A DNA stretch of 44,183 nt, from NCBI GenBank assembly GCA_002067365.1, contig MVRK01000113.1, forward strand, positions 1 to 44,183, written 5' to 3'. The first letter of the stretch is position 1; every line of letters starts with the position of its first letter. The notes beneath the pieces are model-generated. The model did not search any database. It saw only the letters and a program-made list of their open reading frames with translations, and was not told where the DNA came from. The position numbers and the translations under genes are program-made. This DNA comes from Methanosaeta sp. PtaU1.Bin060 (GTDB lineage: Archaea; Halobacteriota; Methanosarcinia; Methanotrichales; Methanotrichaceae). Positions 2,694-44,129 of this stretch are shown one piece after another.

Positions 2694-3845
2694 ATGGACA
2701 GCTCAAGAGAGAGAGGAGATGGAAAGATTGCCCGCAGGCTCATAGCCCTGGCCATCCTTCTCGCGATCTTCGTCAGCCTATCCTCTGCTGACCAGGAGAT
2801 CATACTCATAAAATCGCGCGGATGCCCCAAGTGCGCCGCAGCAGAGCGAGTCCTGAACGGCATCATGGCCGAGGATAAGGACCTGAGGCTCGTGCAGTAC
2901 GACTACATCTCCGACGACGGCCACCGCATCATCAAGGAGTACAAGGTGAAGGATGTGCCCTCGGTGATCATCGGGCAGAGGGTGATAGGCTACAGGGATT
3001 ATGAGAAGGACAGTGCCAAGCTTGAGCGGCTCGTCCGCGAGGCCCTGGCAAACCAGAGTCAAGATAGCGTCGGCCCGTCCATCACGCTCCAGGCCAACCA
3101 GAGCAGCAACCAGAGCATCGACTACCAGAGCGGCACCGACAACGAAGCCGAATTGAACCTGCAGGAGATCTCGCTTTATGCAGTATCTGCCGTCCTTGGG
3201 GCCGGACTACTGGCGGGCTTCAATCCATGTCTTCTCGGCATTCTGGTCTTCCTGGCTGCATCGGTTCTAGCGAGTTCGAGGCGAAGGCGCGAGATGGCGA
3301 CGATGGTCGCCTTCTTCTCCCTTGGCATCTTCACAATGTATTTCCTCTTCGGCCTCGGGATGCAGCGCCTACTGCAGGCTGATGCTGTGGCAGCGGCCTT
3401 CAGGTATATCCTGACGGCGTTCCTGATCGCCATCGGCATGGCGCATATTCTCGATGCTGTGCGGCTGAACAGCGGCGGCAATTCGCTCTTCCGGACGGAC
3501 TGGGCCCTCAAGTACTTCCGCTCGGGCGTGGACAGGGGAAGCCTCAGCTCCTACTTCCTCATAGGAGCCCTCTTCTCACTGGTCAAGCTACCATGCGTCG
3601 GCGGCGTCTACCTCGCGATCCTGGACCTGATCTGGGCCAGGAACTACACAGAGGGAGCAATCTTTCTGGCAGCCTTCAATCTGGGAGTCGTCCTGCCCAT
3701 CCTGATCCTGGGAGGATTCCTGACCCTGGGGATGAGCCCTGCACAGGTGGATTCCTTCCGCAAGGACCACCGCGTCGGGATGAGGCTTGTCACCGGCCTG
3801 ACGCTGCTCGCTCTGGCACCTCTCATCTACTGGCAGCTGATTTGA
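2694..3845 (+). CDS. Thioredoxin-like domain fused to a CcdA/DsbD-type membrane electron carrier
   Basis: 383 residues. An N-terminal hydrophobic segment (about 14-32) exports a thioredoxin/glutaredoxin-like domain (about 33-120) with the redox motif Cys-Pro-Lys-Cys and a Val-Pro-Ser cis-proline site. A polar linker rich in Asn-Gln-Ser follows. The C-terminal half (about 158-383) has six or so membrane segments with the CcdA signatures Gly-Phe-Asn-Pro-Cys and Leu-Pro-Cys-Val-Gly-Gly, whose two cysteines pass electrons across the membrane. The protein therefore probably moves reductant from cytoplasmic thioredoxin to an extracytoplasmic redox partner fused in the same chain, a simplified DsbD. 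Likely targets are exported cysteine proteins such as those encoded nearby or cytochrome c apoproteins; the target is inferred. Confidence 0.9.
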   Translation: MDSSRERGDGKIARRLIALAILLAIFVSLSSADQEIILIKSRGCPKCAAAERVLNGIMAEDKDLRLVQYDYISDDGHRIIKEYKVKDVPSVIIGQRVIGYRDYEKDSAKLERLVREALANQSQDSVGPSITLQANQSSNQSIDYQSGTDNEAELNLQEISLYAVSAVLGAGLLAGFNPCLLGILVFLAASVLASSRRRREMATMVAFFSLGIFTMYFLFGLGMQRLLQADAVAAAFRYILTAFLIAIGMAHILDAVRLNSGGNSLFRTDWALKYFRSGVDRGSLSSYFLIGALFSLVKLPCVGGVYLAILDLIWARNYTEGAIFLAAFNLGVVLPILILGGFLTLGMSPAQVDSFRKDHRVGMRLVTGLTLLALAPLIYWQLI

Positions 3846-3953
3846 GGCGACGGCCTGATGGCAAAGACGCAGGCGGCAGCGGCAGACATTTTTGGCGGAC
3901 CTTGGAAAAAGGATTAATAGAGAGATGGATCTCCAGAAGTACGAGGTGAACCT

Positions 3954-5141
3954 TTGTTTTTAGTAGGAGAGGCTCTTATTGGAAAGGAGCCTGAGATAGC
4001 TCACATCGATCTGCTCATAGGGGAAAAGGAGGGCCCCGTGGGGACGGCCTTTGCCTCCGGCCTCACGCAGCTCTCGGCCGGGCATACACCCCTTCTGGGG
4101 GTCATCAGGCCGAACCTTCCCCCAAAACCCTCGACGCTCATAGTCCCCAAGGTCACAGTCAAGAATATGGAACAGGCTGCCCAGATCTTCGGGCCCGCCC
4201 AGATGGCTGTCGCCAAGGCTGTGGCTGATGCTGTGGCAGAGGGCGTGATCCCAAAGGAGAAGGTCGAGGAGCTGGTAGTGATAGTATCCGTCTTCATCCA
4301 TCCAGCGGCCAAGGACTACGATGCCATCTACCGCTATAACTACGGTGCCACAAAGCTGGCGCTCCAGCGCGCGATGGAGGGCTTCCCGGACATCGAAAAG
4401 GTGCTCTACGAGAAGGACAGGTCAACGCATCCCATCATGGGATTCAGGGTCACGCGCCTCTGGGATCCGCCATATCTGCAGGTCGCCTTCGACCTGGTGG
4501 ACCTGGCAGAGGTCAAGCGCGTGCTAGCGGCGCTTCCTGAGAGCGACCACATCCTAATCGAGGTCGGGACACCTCTGGTGAAGATGCTGGGGATCAACGT
4601 CGTCAAGGAGATCCGCGCAGTACGGCCAGGTGCCTTCGTCATCCTCGACCTGAAGACGCTCGACACAGGGAACCTGGAGGTGCGGCTGGCTGCGGACTCA
4701 GCCGCAGATGCAGTGGTCATCTCGGGCCTAGCGCCGAAGAAGACCCTGGAACTCTCCATCAACGAGGCCAGGAAGACTGGCATCTACTCGGTGATAGACA
4801 TGCTCAATGTGCCGGATCCGGTGGCGGTTCTGAAGGAGCTGGCTGTCCTGCCGGACGTGGTAGAGCTGCACCGCGCCATCGATATGGAGAAGAGCGCCTA
4901 CGCCTGGCAGAATATCCCCCAGATCAAGGAGCTGGCAAAGGATGGTCGCAGGCTTCTGGTGGCAGTGGCCGGAGGCATTCGCGTGGACAACGAGAGCCAG
5001 GCGCTCAAGGCGGGCGCAGACATCCTCGTCGTCGGACGCGCCATCACCCGCTCCAGGGATATTCGCGACGCCGCCGAGCAGTTCCTGGCTGGCCTGAAGC
5101 AGACTGAAATTGATCAGTACAGGATCATGACGGACTTCTGA
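3954..5141 (+). CDS. fae-hps: Bifunctional formaldehyde-activating enzyme / 3-hexulose-6-phosphate synthase (Fae-Hps)
   Basis: 395 residues from a TTG start, five bases after GAGGTG (3943-3948). Residues 1-160 are Fae, which condenses formaldehyde with tetrahydromethanopterin; the catalytic His17 is present in Glu-Ile-Ala-His-Ile-Asp. Residues about 165-390 are the HPS (orotidine-decarboxylase-like) barrel, with Phe-Asp-Leu-Val-Asp, Ile-Leu-Asp-Leu-Lys and a terminal phosphate-binding Val-Ala-Gly-Gly-Ile. In methanogens lacking the oxidative pentose phosphate route the fusion runs in reverse: hexulose 6-phosphate is split to ribulose 5-phosphate and formaldehyde, and Fae captures the formaldehyde. 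This supplies ribose for nucleotides from the fructose 6-phosphate made by the gluconeogenic genes further right. The fusion is well known in Methanosarcinales. It stands alone, with no clear operon partner. Confidence 0.96.
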   Translation: MFLVGEALIGKEPEIAHIDLLIGEKEGPVGTAFASGLTQLSAGHTPLLGVIRPNLPPKPSTLIVPKVTVKNMEQAAQIFGPAQMAVAKAVADAVAEGVIPKEKVEELVVIVSVFIHPAAKDYDAIYRYNYGATKLALQRAMEGFPDIEKVLYEKDRSTHPIMGFRVTRLWDPPYLQVAFDLVDLAEVKRVLAALPESDHILIEVGTPLVKMLGINVVKEIRAVRPGAFVILDLKTLDTGNLEVRLAADSAADAVVISGLAPKKTLELSINEARKTGIYSVIDMLNVPDPVAVLKELAVLPDVVELHRAIDMEKSAYAWQNIPQIKELAKDGRRLLVAVAGGIRVDNESQALKAGADILVVGRAITRSRDIRDAAEQFLAGLKQTEIDQYRIMTDF

Positions 5142-5157
5142 AGATCGCAGATCTCCG

Positions 5158-6573
5158 ATGATCCGCTCTTTTCTCTTTTTTTCGAAACATAGTTCTCTGC
5201 CATTATTTCGGCTTCAAAAGCAGCTATTTCAAAGACCGTTATTGTCATTACTATTATTGCTATTATCATCATCGCCAATATTGCTGATATTTGCGCAGCT
5301 CACGATCAGCGGGGCAGCAGTGGATGTGCAGGTGGGCCCGCAGGCCGAGCCCGGCGGCGCTGTGATCCTGGTGGTGGACGGCTTCGGCTCATCCTATGCA
5401 TACCCTGAGCACGAGCCCTACGCCCTGGACGGCGCTCTCCTCGAAAAGGCGGTTCTCTACAACCTCACGGGCTCGGGGGCGCGTCTCGTGGACGTGCGGG
5501 TCCCCGTTCCTGAGACGACGAAGAGCCATGGCATTCTTGTCACCGGCTTCTCGGGCGCTGACCCGCAGAATCTCGGAAGGACTATCTTCGACAGGGCGCG
5601 CGAGAAGGGCTACCTCTGCCTCGGGGTGCTGGAGCGCGGCGACTCGAAGGAGGTCCTGCAGAAGCTCGATGCCGTGCTATATCTGGACGACAACTCCATC
5701 CACGGGGCAGAGCCTGTCCCGGGGTTCAGGGATGGCGTCCCGCAGGATCTGCATGCGCTCCTCCAGGCCTGGCGGGACAGATTCTCCAATTATACAGCAG
5801 AGCCGGGCACCGCTGGCTATGCCGGGTATAACCTATGGGGCCTGGAGACGGCGACGGACATTGTGGAGCATATGGGAAGCAGGCATTTCCTGCTCATCGC
5901 CAACATAGGCGGAGCCGATAGCGCAGGCCAGGATCTGGGAGCCGAGGGCTACATTAAGACCTTAGAGGCCCTGGATGCGCCTCTCGGCAGGCTGGCGGAG
6001 GCATGCCGCAGGAACGGGGACCTCCTCGTGATCACAGCAGACCACGGCATGTGCTTTCCCTCCTCGCGGGGCAGGGGCGGGCACTCTGCGACGAAGTACG
6101 CGGGCCGCCTGGAGAGCCTGCGAGTTCCCCTGGTCTTCCATGGTCCGGGCGTAGAGGAGCTGAACCTGGGAGGCGTCTGGTCGGAGACTGATATCGCACC
6201 CACTCTCCTGGACCTGCTGAATATCCCTGAAAACCTGTCTGCCGAGGGAAGGGCGCTGCCCATCAAGGAATGCTACAGCCTGCTGGTGAAGGGCGCACCA
6301 GACGGCGCGTCGCTCTGGCGCGGTGGAGTGCTGCTGGCCAATGCCACAGGGGATGACGAGTACAACTTCCAGGGCCTGAAGAGAGGGGTTTACACTGTCA
6401 AGGCGGGAGAGAGGGCGCAGGAGGTCCTCGTCAATGGCGACCAGCAGGTGAATCTGGAGAAGAAGGCCGCTCCGCCCTGGGAAGCCATGAAGAGGGTCCT
6501 GGGAATCATCCTCATCATGGCCATAAACCTGGCAGGGATAGCGATTATTCTCAGGATCCTGAGGAAGGATTGA
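5158..6573 (+). CDS. Membrane-anchored alkaline-phosphatase-superfamily enzyme
   Basis: 471 residues. A long hydrophobic N-terminus rich in Leu and Ser (about 25-50) and a C-terminal membrane helix (about 448-468) place the catalytic domain outside the cell, tethered at both ends. The domain has the AlkP/phosphoglycerate-mutase-type metal ligands: Val-Val-Asp-Gly-Phe-Gly near residue 67, and Thr-Ala-Asp-His-Gly followed by Gly-Gly-His in the second half. A Leu-Arg-Val-Pro-Leu strand and a small beta domain with Asn-Leu-Glu-Lys precede the anchor. It could hydrolyse or transfer phosphate, phosphonate or sulfate groups on surface glycans or lipids; the substrate cannot be read from sequence. 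The DNA for the N-terminus (5180-5290) is low-complexity and AT-rich compared with the rest. No good ribosome binding site is visible at this ATG, so the exact start is uncertain. Confidence 0.82.
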   Translation: MIRSFLFFSKHSSLPLFRLQKQLFQRPLLSLLLLLLSSSPILLIFAQLTISGAAVDVQVGPQAEPGGAVILVVDGFGSSYAYPEHEPYALDGALLEKAVLYNLTGSGARLVDVRVPVPETTKSHGILVTGFSGADPQNLGRTIFDRAREKGYLCLGVLERGDSKEVLQKLDAVLYLDDNSIHGAEPVPGFRDGVPQDLHALLQAWRDRFSNYTAEPGTAGYAGYNLWGLETATDIVEHMGSRHFLLIANIGGADSAGQDLGAEGYIKTLEALDAPLGRLAEACRRNGDLLVITADHGMCFPSSRGRGGHSATKYAGRLESLRVPLVFHGPGVEELNLGGVWSETDIAPTLLDLLNIPENLSAEGRALPIKECYSLLVKGAPDGASLWRGGVLLANATGDDEYNFQGLKRGVYTVKAGERAQEVLVNGDQQVNLEKKAAPPWEAMKRVLGIILIMAINLAGIAIILRILRKD

Positions 6574-27902: not shown

Positions 27903-30071
27903 TTAGTCTCTCCTGCCGAGGACGAGGTAAGCGACTGCCAGGAGGCCTGCTATGGCGAAGATGCCCTCAAATCCGGGCTGGCTCTTCTTCTCCTCTTCAG
28001 CGACAGGTGCTGTGGTCTCGTTCTCTGCGGCCGGGGTGACTGTCTCTGGAGTCTCAGCCGGAGTCACATTCTCAGGGGCCGGGGTTGGCTCTGCTGTTTC
28101 AGGGGCCGCGGCCGGGGTGACATTCTCAGGGGCCTTGACTTCAGTTACGTTCTCAGCGACTGCGGCTGCACCTGCGATGGTCACAGGTTTGTAGACGTAG
28201 TACCTGAGGGTGTCGTTATCCGCGGTCTTGATGTTGACGCCGGGCATCAGGGTTGTGTCCTTGTTCTTGGACAGGGTTATGGCGTTATCCTTGTTGTTCA
28301 TGGTGATGATGCCATTGGTGGCATCAACTGTGTTGATGGTCATCTTGTCGTACTCGGTGTCGGCCTTGACCTCAACCGGAGTATCGGATATCTGCCAGAT
28401 GCCGTCGATGGATGCCAGGTCCTGGGATGCGCCGCGGAAGGCGTTCTTGAAGTGGACGCCGATCGTCACGAGCTTGTTCTGGTTCCCTACCTTCGGGTTC
28501 TTGTAGTAGTAGGTCTTGTCGAGCTCATCCGCGTTGTCCTTGGATGGGGAGACGACCTTGCTGTCAACGACTGATCCATCCTTGGAGAGCTCCAGGTAGA
28601 CCTTGTTGCCGTCGGTGTCGATGGACTTGATTGCCAGCTCGTAGCCCTCAGCCAGCTTGAGCGGAGTGCCGGAGGTGACAGTCATCTCATCGTCGTCGTC
28701 CATCAGGATCTTCTCGAGCTGCTCGTCAGAGAGAGAGTTCCTGTCGGTGGACTCGGCGTAGAATATGTCCGATCCGCTTGCCTCATCCACACCCTGGTTG
28801 TATCCTGCGAAGTACTTCTCGGCCTGGAAGCCAATTATCTTGTAGCTGCCCCAGATCTCGCGCTCGTACTCCTTGTTCTGTGCGGTTGTGGTGTAGGTGA
28901 CTCCGCGGGGCTCATCGCCGCTGAGCTTGTTGCCCTCAGTCAGCTTGAAATCGAGAGTCTCAGTGCCGAGATCGTTCTTGATGTCGTAGTAGAAGCCTGC
29001 GAAGTTCTGTGGGTTCCAAGCGAAGTCGCCAGTGGCAACTGCGCCCCTTACCTGGTACTCGCCGGGCTCAGTTATCTCCTTGTAGATGTAGAACCTGAGA
29101 GTATCGTTATCCGCGGTCTTGATGTTGACGCCGGGCATCAGGGTTGTGTCCTTGTTCTTGGACAGGGTTACGGCGTTATCCTTGTTGTTCATGGTGATGA
29201 CGCCATTGGTGGCATCAACTGTGTTGATGGTCATCTTGTCGTACTCGGTGTCAGCCTTGACCTCTGTCGGGGTATCGGATATCTGCCAGATGCCGTCGAT
29301 GGATGCCAGGTCCTGGGATGCGCCGCGGAAGGCGTTCTTGAAGTGGACGCCGATCGTCACGAGCTTGTTCTGGTTCCCTACCTTCGGGTTCTTGTAGTAG
29401 TAGGTCTTGTCAAGCTCATTCGCGTTGTCCTTGGATGGGGAGACGACCTTGGTGTCAACGACTGATCCATCCTTGGAGAGCTCCAGGTAGACCTTGTTGC
29501 CGTCGGTGTCGATGGACTTGATTGCCAGCTCGTAGCCCTCAGCCAGCTTGAGCGGAGTGCCGGAGGTGACAGTCATCTCATCGTCGTCGTCCATCAGGAT
29601 CTTCTCGAGCTGCTCGTCAGAGAGAGAGTTCCTGTCGGTGGACTCGGCGTAGAATATGTCCGATCCGCTTGCCTCATCCACACCCTGGTTGTATCCTGCG
29701 AAGTACTTCTCGGCCTGGAAGCCAATTATCTTGAAGTTGCCCCAGATCTCGCGCTCGAATTCCTTGTTCTGGACTGTTGTGGTGTATGTGATGCCACGGG
29801 GCTCATCGCCGCTGAGCTTGTTGCCCTCAGTCAGATCGAACTTGAGAGTCTCGGTGCCGAGATCGTTCTTAATGTCGTAGTAAAAGCCAGCGAAGGTCTG
29901 CGGGTCCCAAGTGAAGGAGTTATCAACCAAGTTGCTCTGGCCGTTGATTGTTCCGGCCACAGCGCCTCTAACCTCAACACTAGTTGGATTTTCTCCCGCG
30001 ACTACGCCGACCACCATCGCTGTTGCCAGTAGCATCATCGATGTAAGCGTAATTGCAGCCAATTTCTTCAT
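27903..30071 (-). CDS. S-layer protein with two duplicated S-layer domains and PGF-CTERM anchor
   Basis: 722 residues. After a signal peptide (about 1-26) come two homologous S-layer domains of the Methanosarcinales DUF1608 type (about 32-335 and 340-630). Each starts Val-Arg-Gly-Ala-Val, contains Phe-Ala-Gly-Phe-Tyr-Tyr-Asp-Ile and Tyr-Phe-Ala-Gly-Tyr, and ends Asp-Asn-Asp-Thr-Leu-Arg. A Pro/Ala/Thr/Glu-rich stalk with several Asn-x-Thr sequons (about 640-695) leads to Gln-Pro-Gly-Phe-Glu, a hydrophobic helix and Gly-Arg-Arg-Asp: a PGF-CTERM signal, normally processed by archaeosortase A and lipid-linked. It is probably a main cell-envelope protein. GGAGGTT stands ahead of the ATG. A strong promoter and long leader lie upstream. 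Confidence 0.95.
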   Translation of the reverse strand: MKKLAAITLTSMMLLATAMVVGVVAGENPTSVEVRGAVAGTINGQSNLVDNSFTWDPQTFAGFYYDIKNDLGTETLKFDLTEGNKLSGDEPRGITYTTTVQNKEFEREIWGNFKIIGFQAEKYFAGYNQGVDEASGSDIFYAESTDRNSLSDEQLEKILMDDDDEMTVTSGTPLKLAEGYELAIKSIDTDGNKVYLELSKDGSVVDTKVVSPSKDNANELDKTYYYKNPKVGNQNKLVTIGVHFKNAFRGASQDLASIDGIWQISDTPTEVKADTEYDKMTINTVDATNGVITMNNKDNAVTLSKNKDTTLMPGVNIKTADNDTLRFYIYKEITEPGEYQVRGAVATGDFAWNPQNFAGFYYDIKNDLGTETLDFKLTEGNKLSGDEPRGVTYTTTAQNKEYEREIWGSYKIIGFQAEKYFAGYNQGVDEASGSDIFYAESTDRNSLSDEQLEKILMDDDDEMTVTSGTPLKLAEGYELAIKSIDTDGNKVYLELSKDGSVVDSKVVSPSKDNADELDKTYYYKNPKVGNQNKLVTIGVHFKNAFRGASQDLASIDGIWQISDTPVEVKADTEYDKMTINTVDATNGIITMNNKDNAITLSKNKDTTLMPGVNIKTADNDTLRYYVYKPVTIAGAAAVAENVTEVKAPENVTPAAAPETAEPTPAPENVTPAETPETVTPAAENETTAPVAEEEKKSQPGFEGIFAIAGLLAVAYLVLGRRD
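28190..29921 (-). repeat. Internal 891-base tandem duplication in the S-layer gene
   Basis: The stretches 28190-29030 and 29081-29921 align at a constant offset of 891 bases (297 codons) with no net insertion. Several checkpoints (28213/29104, 28391/29282, 28981/29872) keep the same spacing. Long parts are identical at DNA level, including third codon positions, so the duplication is recent or kept uniform by gene conversion. Confidence 0.9.
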
Positions 30072-40135: not shown

Positions 40136-40208
40136 AGTCCCGTGGGGTAGTGGTCAATCCTGAGGGCCTTTGGAGCCCGCGACGGTGGTTCGAATCCGCC
40201 CGGGACTA
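40136..40208 (+). tRNA. tRNA-Gln (anticodon TTG)
   Basis: Cloverleaf: acceptor stem AGTCCCG with CGGGACT (40136-40142 and 40201-40207), discriminator A at 40208; D arm with GGTAGT and GGTCAAT; anticodon stem with four firm pairs around the loop CTTTGGA, anticodon TTG at 40170-40172; T arm GGTGG-TTCGAAT-CCGCC. The 3' CCA is not encoded. The base pair closing the anticodon stem (A-G) is mismatched. In archaea this tRNA is first charged with glutamate and then amidated. Confidence 0.93.
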
Positions 40209-40254: not shown

Positions 40255-40304
40255 TCACCACAGGCGTTCAGAGCCAGGGTCGCTCTGGGCCTCTGTGGCT
40301 ATAT

Positions 40305-40379
40305 GCTCCGGTAGTGTAGTCCGGTCAATCATTCCGGCCTTTCGAGCCGAAGACTCGGGTTCAAATCCCGGCCGGAGCA
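40305..40379 (+). tRNA. tRNA-Glu (anticodon TTC)
   Basis: Acceptor stem GCTCCGG with CCGGAGC (40305-40311 and 40372-40378), discriminator A at 40379; D arm GTGTAGT...GGTCAATCAT; anticodon loop CTTTCGA with anticodon TTC; T arm with GGTTCAAATCCC. It has the usual archaeal tRNA-Glu shape. No encoded CCA and no intron. Confidence 0.96.
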
Positions 40380-40855
40380 TCAACACATAAACATCATGAC
40401 GCCTGTGTGCGATTATTTTCTGGTTTTTATATGGGGGTCGCCCTATACGGTTGAGGCCCTATGGCCAAGAGAGATGTCAGAAAACGGCCGTCCTGTCGCT
40501 CCTCCAACATGGGTGATGGCGAGATGGCGACTCCATTTTCACCAGAACACAAGGTCAGAGCATGCTGGAATCCGCCTCGAAGTGCATCGATTTTCAGTCT
40601 TGATGCTCGATATGTTTATATCTCATTAAACTGCAAAAGACGCCTGTGCCTGAGCAAAACACTCAAATATCAGACGAGAATGATGATAAGGTCAGGTACC
40701 CACACCACAGGAGGGGTAGGCGCTTTGCCTGGGTGGCAGAGCAACTCCAGGTCTCCGGACCCAAAGCATCCTGTCGGGGTGGTTCCAAGGATCAAAGCGC
40801 TTCTATGCGCTTTAAATCCTAACGATTGAGGGTAAAGTAAGGAGGTGGGAACGAA
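40380..40855 (+). promoter_or_regulatory. Promoter and structured leader of the first tandem surface-protein gene
   Basis: After tRNA-Glu come two TATA-like elements: TTTTTATATGG (about 40422-40432) and TTTATATC (40615-40622). The second predicts a leader of about 210 bases. That leader can form three hairpins: 40722-40729 with 40735-40742 (eight pairs, loop TGGGT), 40750-40753 with 40758-40761, and 40788-40800 with 40807-40820 (AAAGCGC/GCGCTTT plus AGGAT/ATCCT). A GGAGGTGG ribosome binding site at 40841-40848 follows 20 bases later. A frame at 40461-40829 runs through this stretch but has no fold or signal that I trust. Confidence 0.55.
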
Positions 40856-41629
40856 ATGAGAAAAGAGATAGCTGTTTTGGTGCTTATCGCCATGGCCCTA
40901 GTAGGTATGGCCGGTGCAGCCAACTACATGTATGAGAAGGCATCGGTTAAGGGCGTCGGATACAAGAACGTAGAGATGATCATTTCCACCCAGTGGGGCT
41001 TCAATGGAGCCAAGCTGGTAGAGAAGGAGTCCGGATCGGGCAACGTCATCACAGAGAGGACTGAGCTCGAGGCCGAGAGGCAGCTCAGCCACGACATGCA
41101 GACTGGGCTCTATGTGGATGCTAACGGGAAGCCAATTTGCGATTACCCGACCGGCTCATGCCCGATGGATTACATCAACTTCACCAAGGAAGCCGAGTTC
41201 GAGTACATGCCAGTCTCTTACCAGACGGGCACATATGACCAGAAGTGGGTCGAGAAGCTCTGCGTCCAGAACTACAGGATCGGCGCTGTGCTGACTGAGA
41301 TGTACACCCATGCCGAGCACCTGCAGAAGACAACTGAGGTCAGGACCAGGGGATATGGTATCGTCGATCTCATCAATCGCAAACCATGCACCCCAGCCTG
41401 CTGCACAGGTGTCCTCGAGGCTAACCTGAACTCCAACGTCATCGGTGTCGCTCACATCGGCTGGATCTCCAGGGACCCCGCGGCAGACACACAGCTCAAG
41501 GGACGCCATGCTGAGTACGGCAGGTCTGTAGAGGACCTCACTGGTGTCTTCTCGATCGAGAAGTTCATCCAGCTCTGGGGCAACTCCACCTGCGGCGCTA
41601 TCAGCGTTGACTGGCTGCCCTGCGTGTAA
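40856..41629 (+). CDS. Secreted surface protein, tandem copy 1 (unknown family)
   Basis: 257 residues with a signal peptide (about 1-21, ending Gly-Ala-Ala), no C-terminal anchor and an apparently beta-rich mature part full of alternating charged/aromatic strands (for example Phe-Glu-Tyr-Met-Pro-Val-Ser-Tyr and Thr-Tyr-Asp-Gln-Lys-Trp-Val-Glu-Lys). Cysteines cluster in a loop (Ile-Cys-Asp-Tyr-Pro-Thr-Gly-Ser-Cys), in Lys-Pro-Cys-Thr-Pro-Ala-Cys-Cys, and at the very end. It is nearly identical to copy 2 except in residues about 83-103. GGAGGTGG eight bases ahead of the ATG is a strong ribosome binding site. I do not recognise a named family; secretion, duplication and company of a further relative suggest a structural role in the sheath or another outer layer of Methanothrix-like filaments, which is inference. 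Confidence 0.85.
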   Translation: MRKEIAVLVLIAMALVGMAGAANYMYEKASVKGVGYKNVEMIISTQWGFNGAKLVEKESGSGNVITERTELEAERQLSHDMQTGLYVDANGKPICDYPTGSCPMDYINFTKEAEFEYMPVSYQTGTYDQKWVEKLCVQNYRIGAVLTEMYTHAEHLQKTTEVRTRGYGIVDLINRKPCTPACCTGVLEANLNSNVIGVAHIGWISRDPAADTQLKGRHAEYGRSVEDLTGVFSIEKFIQLWGNSTCGAISVDWLPCV

Positions 41630-41653
41630 ATAGATAAAACTAAAAAGATACTT

Positions 41654-41673
41654 GCTCCGGCGCATGCCGGGGC
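41654..41673 (+). terminator. Hairpin terminator after surface-protein copy 1
   Basis: GCTCCGGC (41654-41661) pairs with GCCGGGGC (41666-41673) around the loop GCAT, followed by AGTTCATTCTATTTT. The stem is eight pairs including one G-U, 24 bases past the stop codon. The copy-2 terminator has the same stem with the loop-closing pair changed from C-G to G-C. Confidence 0.65.
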
Positions 41674-42094
41674 AGTTCATTCTATTTTAAGTCCAAGCGT
41701 TGTTGTGCGGTATTCCTCTTCTGCATCACGGAGCCGTCGATTTACTATATTCAGCATTTCGAAAGCATTCAACGTGAATTTCGGCGAAACATCCGAGATG
41801 CATTCGACAGGTTTATATGCTAATAATCGAACCAGAGAACTTGCCTGAATGCAGTAATTGTGCAGTCAGATAAAAGAAGCTATCAGGCGCTTCACATCGG
41901 GAGGGATGGATTGGAAGGTCGTGGCTGTTTGTCTCTGGCCGTGTCGTCGGCGAAAGCAGTTTCGGCACCTTTGGTGGAACAGCACATGGAATCCATCGAA
42001 CCGAAGGTCATCCGCCCTGCTGTAGTGATGTCACGTGAGGATCTTTTGCGGTCCCAGGACGGCCTAAGATCCGACGTAAGGAGGTGGGAACGAA
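41674..42094 (+). promoter_or_regulatory. Promoter and leader of surface-protein copy 2
   Basis: The TATA box GTTTATATGC (41811-41820) predicts a transcript start near 41843 and a leader of about 250 bases. A seven-pair stem GGATCTT/AAGATCC (42039-42045 with 42066-42072) stands just ahead of the GGAGGTGG ribosome binding site (42080-42087). Except for the last 19 bases before the ATG, the leader does not resemble that of copy 1. No gene is convincing here. Confidence 0.55.
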
Positions 42095-42877
42095 ATGAGA
42101 AAAGAGATAGCTGTTTTGGTGCTTATCGCTATGGCCCTGGTAGGCATGGCCGGTGCAGCTAACTACATGTACGAGAAGGCATCGGTTAAGGGCGTCGGAT
42201 ACAAGAACGTGGAGATGATCATTTCCACCCAGTGGGGCTTTGGAGGACAGAAGCTGGTAGAGAAGGAGTCCGGATCGGGCAACGTCATCACAGAGAGGAC
42301 TGAGCTTGAGGCCGAGAGGCAGCTCAATCACGATGGAAGCCCAATCGGCGCCACAAAGAATCAGGATGGCACATACACAATGGTTTGTGAGTGGCCAACC
42401 GGCTTGTGCGCAATGGACTACATCAACTTCACCAAGGAAGCCGAGTTCGAGTACATGCCAGTCTCTTACCAGACGGGCACATACGACCAGAAGTGGGTCG
42501 AGAAGCTCTGCGTCCAGAACTACAAGATCGGAGCCGTGCTGACTGAGATGTACACCCATGCCGAGCACCTGCAGAAGACAACTGAGGTCAGGACCAGGGG
42601 ATATGGTATCGTCGATCTCATCAATCGCAAACCATGCACCCCAGCCTGCTGCACAGGTGTCCTCGAGGCCAACCTGAACTCCAACGTCATCGGTGTCGCT
42701 CACATCGGCTGGATCTCCAGGGATCCCACGGCAGACACACAGCTCAAGGGACGCCATGCTGAGTACGGCAGGTCTGTAGAGGACCTCACTGGTGTCTTCT
42801 CGATCGAGAAGTTCATCCAGCTCTGGGGCAACTCCACCTGCGGCGCTATCAGCGTTGATTGGCTGCCCTGCGTGTAA
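42095..42877 (+). CDS. Secreted surface protein, tandem copy 2 (unknown family)
   Basis: 260 residues. The signal peptide and almost all of the mature chain are identical to copy 1; scattered differences outside the loop are few (for example Asn-Gly-Ala-Lys to Gly-Gly-Gln-Lys near residue 49 and Arg to Lys near 143). The exception is a block of about 20-24 residues (from about residue 83), where this copy reads Asp-Gly-Ser-Pro-Ile-Gly-Ala-Thr-Lys-Asn and ends Cys-Glu-Trp-Pro-Thr-Gly-Leu-Cys; it is three residues longer. The cysteine spacing in the loop (Cys-x5-Cys or -x6-) is kept, so the loop is probably disulfide-closed and exposed. It has its own promoter, leader and terminator, so the two copies can be expressed separately. 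Confidence 0.85.
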   Translation: MRKEIAVLVLIAMALVGMAGAANYMYEKASVKGVGYKNVEMIISTQWGFGGQKLVEKESGSGNVITERTELEAERQLNHDGSPIGATKNQDGTYTMVCEWPTGLCAMDYINFTKEAEFEYMPVSYQTGTYDQKWVEKLCVQNYKIGAVLTEMYTHAEHLQKTTEVRTRGYGIVDLINRKPCTPACCTGVLEANLNSNVIGVAHIGWISRDPTADTQLKGRHAEYGRSVEDLTGVFSIEKFIQLWGNSTCGAISVDWLPCV

Positions 42878-42901
42878 ATAGATAAAACTAAAAAGATACT
42901 T

Positions 42902-42921
42902 GCTCCGGGAATGCCCGGGGC
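42902..42921 (+). terminator. Hairpin terminator after surface-protein copy 2
   Basis: GCTCCGGG (42902-42909) pairs with CCCGGGGC (42914-42921) around AATG, followed by CAAAAATCTTTTTCTTTT. It is the same eight-pair stem as after copy 1, with a compensatory swap in the loop-closing pair, here with a stronger T tract. Confidence 0.7.
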
Positions 42922-43292: not shown

Positions 43293-44129
43293 ATGAAGGG
43301 AGTAGTACTAGCGGCAGTAGTATTAGTGGCTATGTTGGTTGGGTACTGCAATACCGGCCTTGCAACTGTGCCACTCATACCGCCCGTGCAGTATGAACAG
43401 TTTTGTGAAGACCAAAAAGTCTCAGGAACAGGAGTTATCGACGTCAGCACATCGATCATCGACAAAAAGATCGCCCTGGAGTATTATAATACCATGGCAG
43501 GAGACGGTGACTTCGAGCTTAATTCGGAGCATGCATACTCGCAAGATGCGGATAAGCTCAAGAGGAACATCTCCTCTGTGAACGGCGGCAAGAAGTCCAA
43601 CCTGAACCTCTACGAGAACACGAAGCTCACTTACGCAGGCAACACGCCACTCACCGGCGGAAAGTTCCTGCACTCCAAGGAGTTCTACGGAGGGATCGGA
43701 GCCGATGTTCAGGAGATGTTCTCGGTGAACGAGATGGAGAAGGAGCAGACGTCGTACTTCACATCGACGGTGCCATACAACCCGGCTGCCATCGATCCAA
43801 ATACAGGAAACTTCCTGACGCCCGAGCAGATCCCAGAGGCGTTGAAGCGTGCTGGACGAAATACGGTCGCCGCTAACGAGCTCATGAAGAGCGTTGACTA
43901 TAGTACAGGCGAGGTGACCGAGAACCCGGCACACCTGATCGGCATGGAGATGAAGAACACCTTCAACGGCACATGGGGAACTGACGCGAAGTGGCACAAG
44001 ATCTTCTACAAGGATATAAAGGCCCACGAGATGTTCACAGGAAAGTTCGAGGCCGAGAAGACCATCAAGTTCCACGACAATCCTGTACCTGAGAAGATAA
44101 CCCTGGCTTGCGACGGCATAGACTGCTAG
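43293..44129 (+). CDS. Secreted surface protein related to the tandem pair
   Basis: 278 residues with a signal peptide (about 1-24, ending Thr-Gly-Leu-Ala). The mature chain is beta-rich, with few cysteines (one near the start, two in the final Cys-Asp-Gly-Ile-Asp-Cys). Overall identity to the tandem pair is low, but a stretch is shared: Asn-Gly-Thr-Trp-Gly-Thr-Asp-Ala-Lys-Trp-His-Lys followed by Lys-Ala-His-Glu-Met-Phe-Thr-Gly here, against Gly-Thr-Tyr-Asp-Gln-Lys-Trp-Val-Glu-Lys and a His-Ala-Glu segment there. The early Gly-Thr-Gly-Val-Ile-Asp-Val-Ser-Thr also resembles their Val-Lys-Gly-Val-Gly. It is probably a divergent member of the same extracellular family. A T-rich hairpin-like region (GCCCGGC...TTTTTTT, 44144-44160) follows the stop. 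Confidence 0.8.
   Translation: MKGVVLAAVVLVAMLVGYCNTGLATVPLIPPVQYEQFCEDQKVSGTGVIDVSTSIIDKKIALEYYNTMAGDGDFELNSEHAYSQDADKLKRNISSVNGGKKSNLNLYENTKLTYAGNTPLTGGKFLHSKEFYGGIGADVQEMFSVNEMEKEQTSYFTSTVPYNPAAIDPNTGNFLTPEQIPEALKRAGRNTVAANELMKSVDYSTGEVTENPAHLIGMEMKNTFNGTWGTDAKWHKIFYKDIKAHEMFTGKFEAEKTIKFHDNPVPEKITLACDGIDC

Follow-up and report, generated by a model that had tools for sequence, protein, structure and literature searches.

Two hypervariable loops on a near-invariant frame in tandem genes for putative archaeal sheath proteins of Methanothrix

Tandem SH genes and their genomic context

The window, that is, the whole 44,183-nucleotide stretch of DNA analyzed here (contig MVRK01000113.1 of the Methanosaeta sp. 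PtaU1.Bin060 assembly), carries two tandem genes for putative sheath (SH) proteins and a related gene downstream of them (Table 1). The initial annotation had described the pair as nearly identical secreted proteins with a divergent loop, and this was confirmed: both ORFs are present, the proteins are 92% identical, and the loop (loop 1) is saturated at silent sites. In BLASTN, the two genes lie in one common DNA block with 92% identity, which begins at the ribosome-binding site and ends ~40 bases past the stop codon; the flanks of the two copies are not alignable. By eye, both N termini resemble signal peptides, with a basic start, a hydrophobic stretch, and a small-residue cleavage motif before residue 22, and the proteins are predicted to be secreted on this basis. 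No model in Pfam or NCBIfam matched the two proteins, and a sequence search of the PDB found no relative. Among 88 homologues, none matched PHROGs, and stray Pfam matches were found in two.

Table 1. Features of the window discussed in the text
Feature	Position	Strand	Remarks
S-layer duplication-domain protein (PF07752/TIGR01567)	27903–30071	−	Ortholog of Mthe_0677; anchor of the gene count
tRNA-Gln	40136–40208	+	In the syntenic block
tRNA-Glu	40304–40381	+	In the syntenic block
Homogenised block, first member	40837–41672	+	Ribosome-binding site, ORF, terminator-like hairpin; BLASTN
Putative SH protein gene, copy 1	40856–41629	+	257 aa; putative ortholog of Mthe_0668; fold predicted
Predicted signal peptide, copy 1	40856–40918	+	
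Hypervariable loop 1, copy 1	41081–41167	+	Mature residues 55–83; entropy, dS/dN
Hypervariable loop 2, copy 1	41351–41401	+	Mature residues 145–161; entropy, dS/dN
Homogenised block, second member	42076–42919	+	BLASTN
Putative SH protein gene, copy 2	42095–42877	+	260 aa
Hypervariable loop 1, copy 2	42320–42415	+	Unlike copy 1 except for a C..PTG..C motif
Loop 2, copy 2	42599–42649	+	Sequence identical to that in copy 1
Mthe_0667 ortholog; SH protein reported as partner in a predicted ring	43293–44129	+	55% identity at the syntenic place; alignment

The identity of the genes was approached through synteny. The comparison used G104, a one-contig genome that is probably that of M. thermoacetophila PT. 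It has three full-length S-layer genes at the places expected for Mthe_0149, Mthe_0677, and Mthe_1177 from a published table (PMC10470525). Counting ORFs down from Mthe_0677 in the syntenic block, the ortholog of the window pair is Mthe_0668 and the next gene is Mthe_0667, these locus tags being assigned by gene order and not by a named record. The pair shares 79% identity with the single-copy G104 gene. The window and G104 share the block, including both tRNA genes, and G001 has most of the block's protein genes as well; the copy number of the gene at this locus is one in G104, two in the window, and three in G001. From the gene count and the 79% identity, both window genes are assigned as archaeal SH proteins, the duplicated ortholog of Mthe_0668. 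In the alignment, the downstream gene is conserved and lacks the two hypervariable loops described below. Mthe_0668 and Mthe_0667 are the two most transcribed SH proteins of M. thermoacetophila and were modeled together in a sheath ring (PMC11576556). The "MspA" of this species reported from MS/MS corresponds to Mthe_1069, a different protein from those of the window pair.

SH homologues were found in all 26 genomes of the genus. Within the phylum sample, their occurrence was limited to Methanotrichaceae and to a handful of genomes from two further families; 16 viral contigs also carry the gene. This resembles the published distribution of SH proteins, which covers all Methanotrichales, often in multiple copies, with relatives in ANME-1 and viruses. 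The window genome (G000) has three further full-length paralogues, unlinked, which differ in both loops from the pair and from one another. Shorter relatives corresponding to the C-terminal half occur there too: G000:C95:2797-3189, G000:C97:8373-8756, and their orthologs in most genomes encode short secreted-looking proteins that comprise this half of the frame without the long loops. A 1110-aa open frame (G000:C13:3180-3344, L008) starts with the SH N-terminal stretch, followed by apparent TPR/HEAT-type repeats. In another genome, an SH relative with two in-frame stops (G021:C423:3718-4053) is probably a decayed copy.

Sequence diversity, gene conversion, and loop turnover

Diversity among the homologues is not spread evenly over the protein, as the description of a conserved frame with a divergent loop implies. 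In 90 mature homologues, the mean column entropy was 0.38 bits over 190 frame positions versus 2.79 bits over 46 loop positions; 87 of the 90 loop 1 sequences and 85 of the 90 loop 2 sequences were distinct, and their lengths ranged over 14–88 and 10–45 residues, respectively. The divergent loop first placed at residues ~83–105 is real, although slightly wider (residues 76–104 of the copy 1 precursor). It is not the only one: a second hypervariable loop (precursor residues 166–182), missed in the initial annotation, is identical within the pair and differs in the three other full-length paralogues. The loop had also been called cysteine-bounded, which is only partly right: invariance across the 90 sequences is limited to four cysteines of the frame, and loop 1 itself holds one to five.

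Within the pair, loop 1 differs at 14 of ~18 synonymous and 30 of ~69 nonsynonymous sites, whereas the frame has dS of 0.06–0.19 and dN of 0.006–0.04. The almost base-for-base match stated in the initial annotation holds for the tandem pair and is peculiar to it. When unlinked paralogues are compared, frame dS ranges from 0.47 to >2.5 and frame dN from 0.007 to 0.13 (mostly <0.1). Because silent sites are near saturation there and dN is low, the frame identity between unlinked copies is attributed mainly to purifying selection, and recent conversion was rejected as its main cause. Overall, the sequence comparisons indicate that the frame identity reflects extreme purifying selection together with local gene conversion.

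Gene conversion, which had been put forward for testing, is detectable in the homogenised block of the window and in two further patterns. In two genomes, the tandem ORFs are 100% identical and their upstream regions are unlike, as judged by a rough measure of upstream alignment. In the 3' frame segment, type A and type B genes within a genome differ by pS 0.467 and pN 0.043, versus 0.582 and 0.082 with permuted labels; none of 20000 permutations of the genome labels reached the observed likeness, to whose silent-site part within-genome base composition could add. The 5' frame segment showed an effect of the same sign that was much weaker. The identical tandem ORFs and the within-genome likeness of the 3' segment indicate that segments are homogenised within genomes. 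All full-length SH copies seen in G001, including the unlinked one, have FAIQKF where other genomes have FSIEKF; this motif marks, at the protein level, a 3' end that evolves in concert.

The loops turn over rapidly between closely related species. The comparison set comprised five species of the thermophile clade, in which the syntenic locus is single-copy and collinear. In three of the five, the frames differ by pS of 0.04–0.05 and pN of ~0.005, yet loop 1 is 45–65% and loop 2 is 35–60% identical. At the DNA level, loop 1 pairs G104 with JAOAKP and JAKPCO with JANIHG (0.87 each; other pairs, 0.65–0.74), in conflict with the frames. Since the loop relationships conflict with the frame relationships, cassette exchange is implied. 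The second SH gene, type B (G000:C95:401-1135 and orthologs, signature SRIELEAE), has conserved loops and serves as a natural control for the main gene: its loop 1 is 91–100% identical in the same five genomes and 96–100% in sibling pairs. Over 18 genome pairs, loops 1 and 2 of type A averaged 52% and 53% identity, whereas those of type B averaged 87% and 80%. The two loops can move separately: the window pair shares loop 2 but not loop 1, the G001 copies have similar loop 1 sequences and different loop 2 sequences, and in DAXT a common loop 1 goes with differing loop 2 sequences. Neither donor DNA for either window loop nor silent donor cassettes, as in programmed antigenic variation, were found in the window genome or in 25 congeneric genomes. 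Among the viral contigs (L148–L163), several have short loops (e.g., MNCSFPNTCAM/GYQDSCVVNC) resembling those of the G001 tandem copies, a likeness that may hint at virus–host exchange.

Predicted fold and cysteine coupling of the loops

AlphaFold gave a poor model (pLDDT 47) with a first, too uniform alignment (A1). With a diverse alignment (A2), an all-β model with long strands was obtained at pLDDT 89.8 and pTM 0.86. The predicted long strands span residues 3–23, 31–53, 83–118 (interrupted), 123–146, 164–190, and 196–220. The strands have 20–27 residues and can be counted as about twelve segments in the model. The core of SH proteins is described as two six-stranded β sheets. The chain topology puts loops 1 and 2, each of which connects long strands, at one and the same end of the fold, opposite the short turns (24–30, 119–122, and 191–195). 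The model thus predicts a variable cap at one end of the core, as in SH proteins. A Foldseek search of this model against the PDB and BFVD gave nothing at an E value of 0.001 or below. The position of both loops at one end fits the surface exposure assumed in the initial annotation, as a predicted position and not a measured surface. Because the cap at one end of the Methanospirillum protein faces outward (PMC10593813 and PMC11576556), we infer by analogy that the window loops are exposed outward.

The numbers of cysteines in the two loops are coupled. The loop 1:loop 2 counts were 1:1 in 41, 2:2 in 29, and 1:3 in 8 of the 90 sequences. The total was even in 82 of 90, versus a mean of 47 and a maximum of 66 in shuffles, although relatedness inflates this test; in a larger set, it was even in 110 of 117 sequences. 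In 58 disjoint nearest pairs, parity changes of the two loops coincided (Fisher P 0.01), in a small test in which loop 1 changed parity just five times. This coupling suggests that both loops may form one joint cap, and disulfides joining loop 1 to loop 2 would be its simplest reading.

Proposed explanation, alternatives, and comparison with known systems

Here, we propose an explanation that we consider quite probable as a whole: the proteins would be SH subunits with a frozen frame and jointly capped loops that are replaced as cassettes. The two proteins would be amyloid-like subunits that assemble by edge-to-edge stacking into rings of the Methanothrix sheath. Their frame would supply the cross-β core and the subunit contacts, so that nearly every amino acid change is removed. 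The two loops, leaving the strands at the same end, would form one cap, probably tied by disulfides and probably directed outward as in Methanospirillum. Change would be tolerated in the caps, which in the main-cluster gene would be swapped as cassettes through recombination in the near-invariant flanks. Conversion would keep the tandem ORFs and the 3' ends alike in each genome, and loops may pass from one paralogue or species to another, and perhaps to or from viruses. With the window pair, the cell would be able to build a single sheath lattice that has two kinds of outer surface; an assignment to the sheath agrees with the early suggestion that these are layer subunits differing in their contact surfaces. 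We infer that both copies are incorporated into the sheath and that selection comes from an agent that touches it, either viruses or syntrophic bacteria.

Several other explanations were weighed against this proposal. The loops might be unconstrained spacers that drift without selection for variety and without cassette exchange. Their location between strands and their variable lengths agree with this, but drift is improbable, because type A loops are far less conserved than type B loops over the same 18 genome pairs, and the turnover at frame pS of 0.04–0.05 and pN of ~0.005 is too fast for point mutation; drift also does not account for the coupled cysteine counts or for the conflict between loop and frame relationships. 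A functional specialization, in which the cap and its structural role (hoop contact, plug, or tip) are fixed for each paralogue and the tandem copies are structural isoforms with no arms-race surface, is a more serious competitor, although we regard it as rather unlikely. Cap types do persist across species, as exemplified by a SYPTYC-like loop 2 in five sequences and by the type B loops, and specialized cap roles have been proposed (PMC11576556). Specialization leaves unexplained why the most transcribed gene, at the locus where its ortholog is single-copy, changes both loops between sibling species with its frame barely differing. A joining of loops from different strains or copies during assembly is very unlikely. 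The window genome is in 136 contigs, the two copies share long near-identical runs, and most genomes compared are metagenome-assembled, in which near-identical repeats can be misassembled; however, the same patterns are seen where the assembly has just one or two contigs (G001 with its three tandem copies, G242, and G104) and in many independent assemblies.

The window genome does contain a diversity-generating retroelement, located in a provirus-like contig end (G000:C19:47500-53891, L215; minus strand, 2985-3983, 4108-4402, and 4278-5651). It consists of a reverse transcriptase, a template repeat (4108-4226), and a variable repeat (4284-4402) located at the end of a tail protein whose second domain is Mtd, and 29 of the 30 mismatches between the repeats fall at template adenines. 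As a source of the sheath loops, this element is to be given practically no weight: its variable region lies in the neighboring Mtd-like tail protein, the sheath loops vary in length, and a search of the genome for a template copy of a sheath loop gave none. Retroelement diversification of the loops was rejected. That the Mtd-like tail protein recognizes the sheath is speculation.

Returning to the cassette-replacement proposal, a further step can be taken only tentatively. The main sheath subunit of Methanothrix might be a variable surface antigen, with a two-loop, disulfide-coupled cap whose cassettes are exchanged among paralogues, sibling species, and SH-carrying viruses, and whose diversity is kept by sheath-recognizing viruses. 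The retroelement-diversified tail protein of the provirus-like element is possibly the other half of such a race. A frozen frame with rapidly rewritten loops is reminiscent of surface molecules that face attackers or partners. Among acetate-consuming methanogens, Methanothrix is a major one, and viruses and electron-donating partners meet the cell at its sheath. If the most transcribed subunit indeed combines a rapidly exchanged outer cap with a frozen amyloid-like core, the sheath would be a variable recognition surface beyond its role as armor; this would open direct tests of virus host range, partner specificity, and strain tracking, and would provide a naturally modular display scaffold.

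Conserved scaffolds with recombining, hypervariable exposed loops are known, for example, from neisserial porins and pilins and from flagellins. The window proteins resemble them in the conserved scaffold, the variable loops predicted to be exposed, and the recombination in conserved flanks, and differ in probably belonging to an archaeal amyloid-like cell sheath; silent cassettes were looked for here and not found. SH/MspA of Methanospirillum hungatei (WP_011449234.1; PMC6242892 and PMC10593813) is likewise a sheath subunit with an amyloid-like core and an external cap, and its cysteines are implicated in ring linking; compared by description only, it is larger (~40 kDa) and has a larger cap. 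The closest match is with the archaeal SH proteins of Medvedeva, Borrel and Gribaldo (2024, PMC11576556), which are also secreted, all-β with long strands, and multi-copy, with high-identity tandem copies, locations near tRNA genes and an S-layer-domain gene, and relatives in viral contigs. That study reports cap diversity between types and takes near-identical neighbors as recent duplications, and its main text does not mention recombination, gene conversion, or variable regions. SH proteins and their cap diversity are thus already published, whereas we did not find the hypervariability, the loop coupling, or the loop exchange described. Relative to that account, the window family is distinguished by hypervariable loops within one near-invariant protein, coupled cysteines, gene conversion, and loop exchange.
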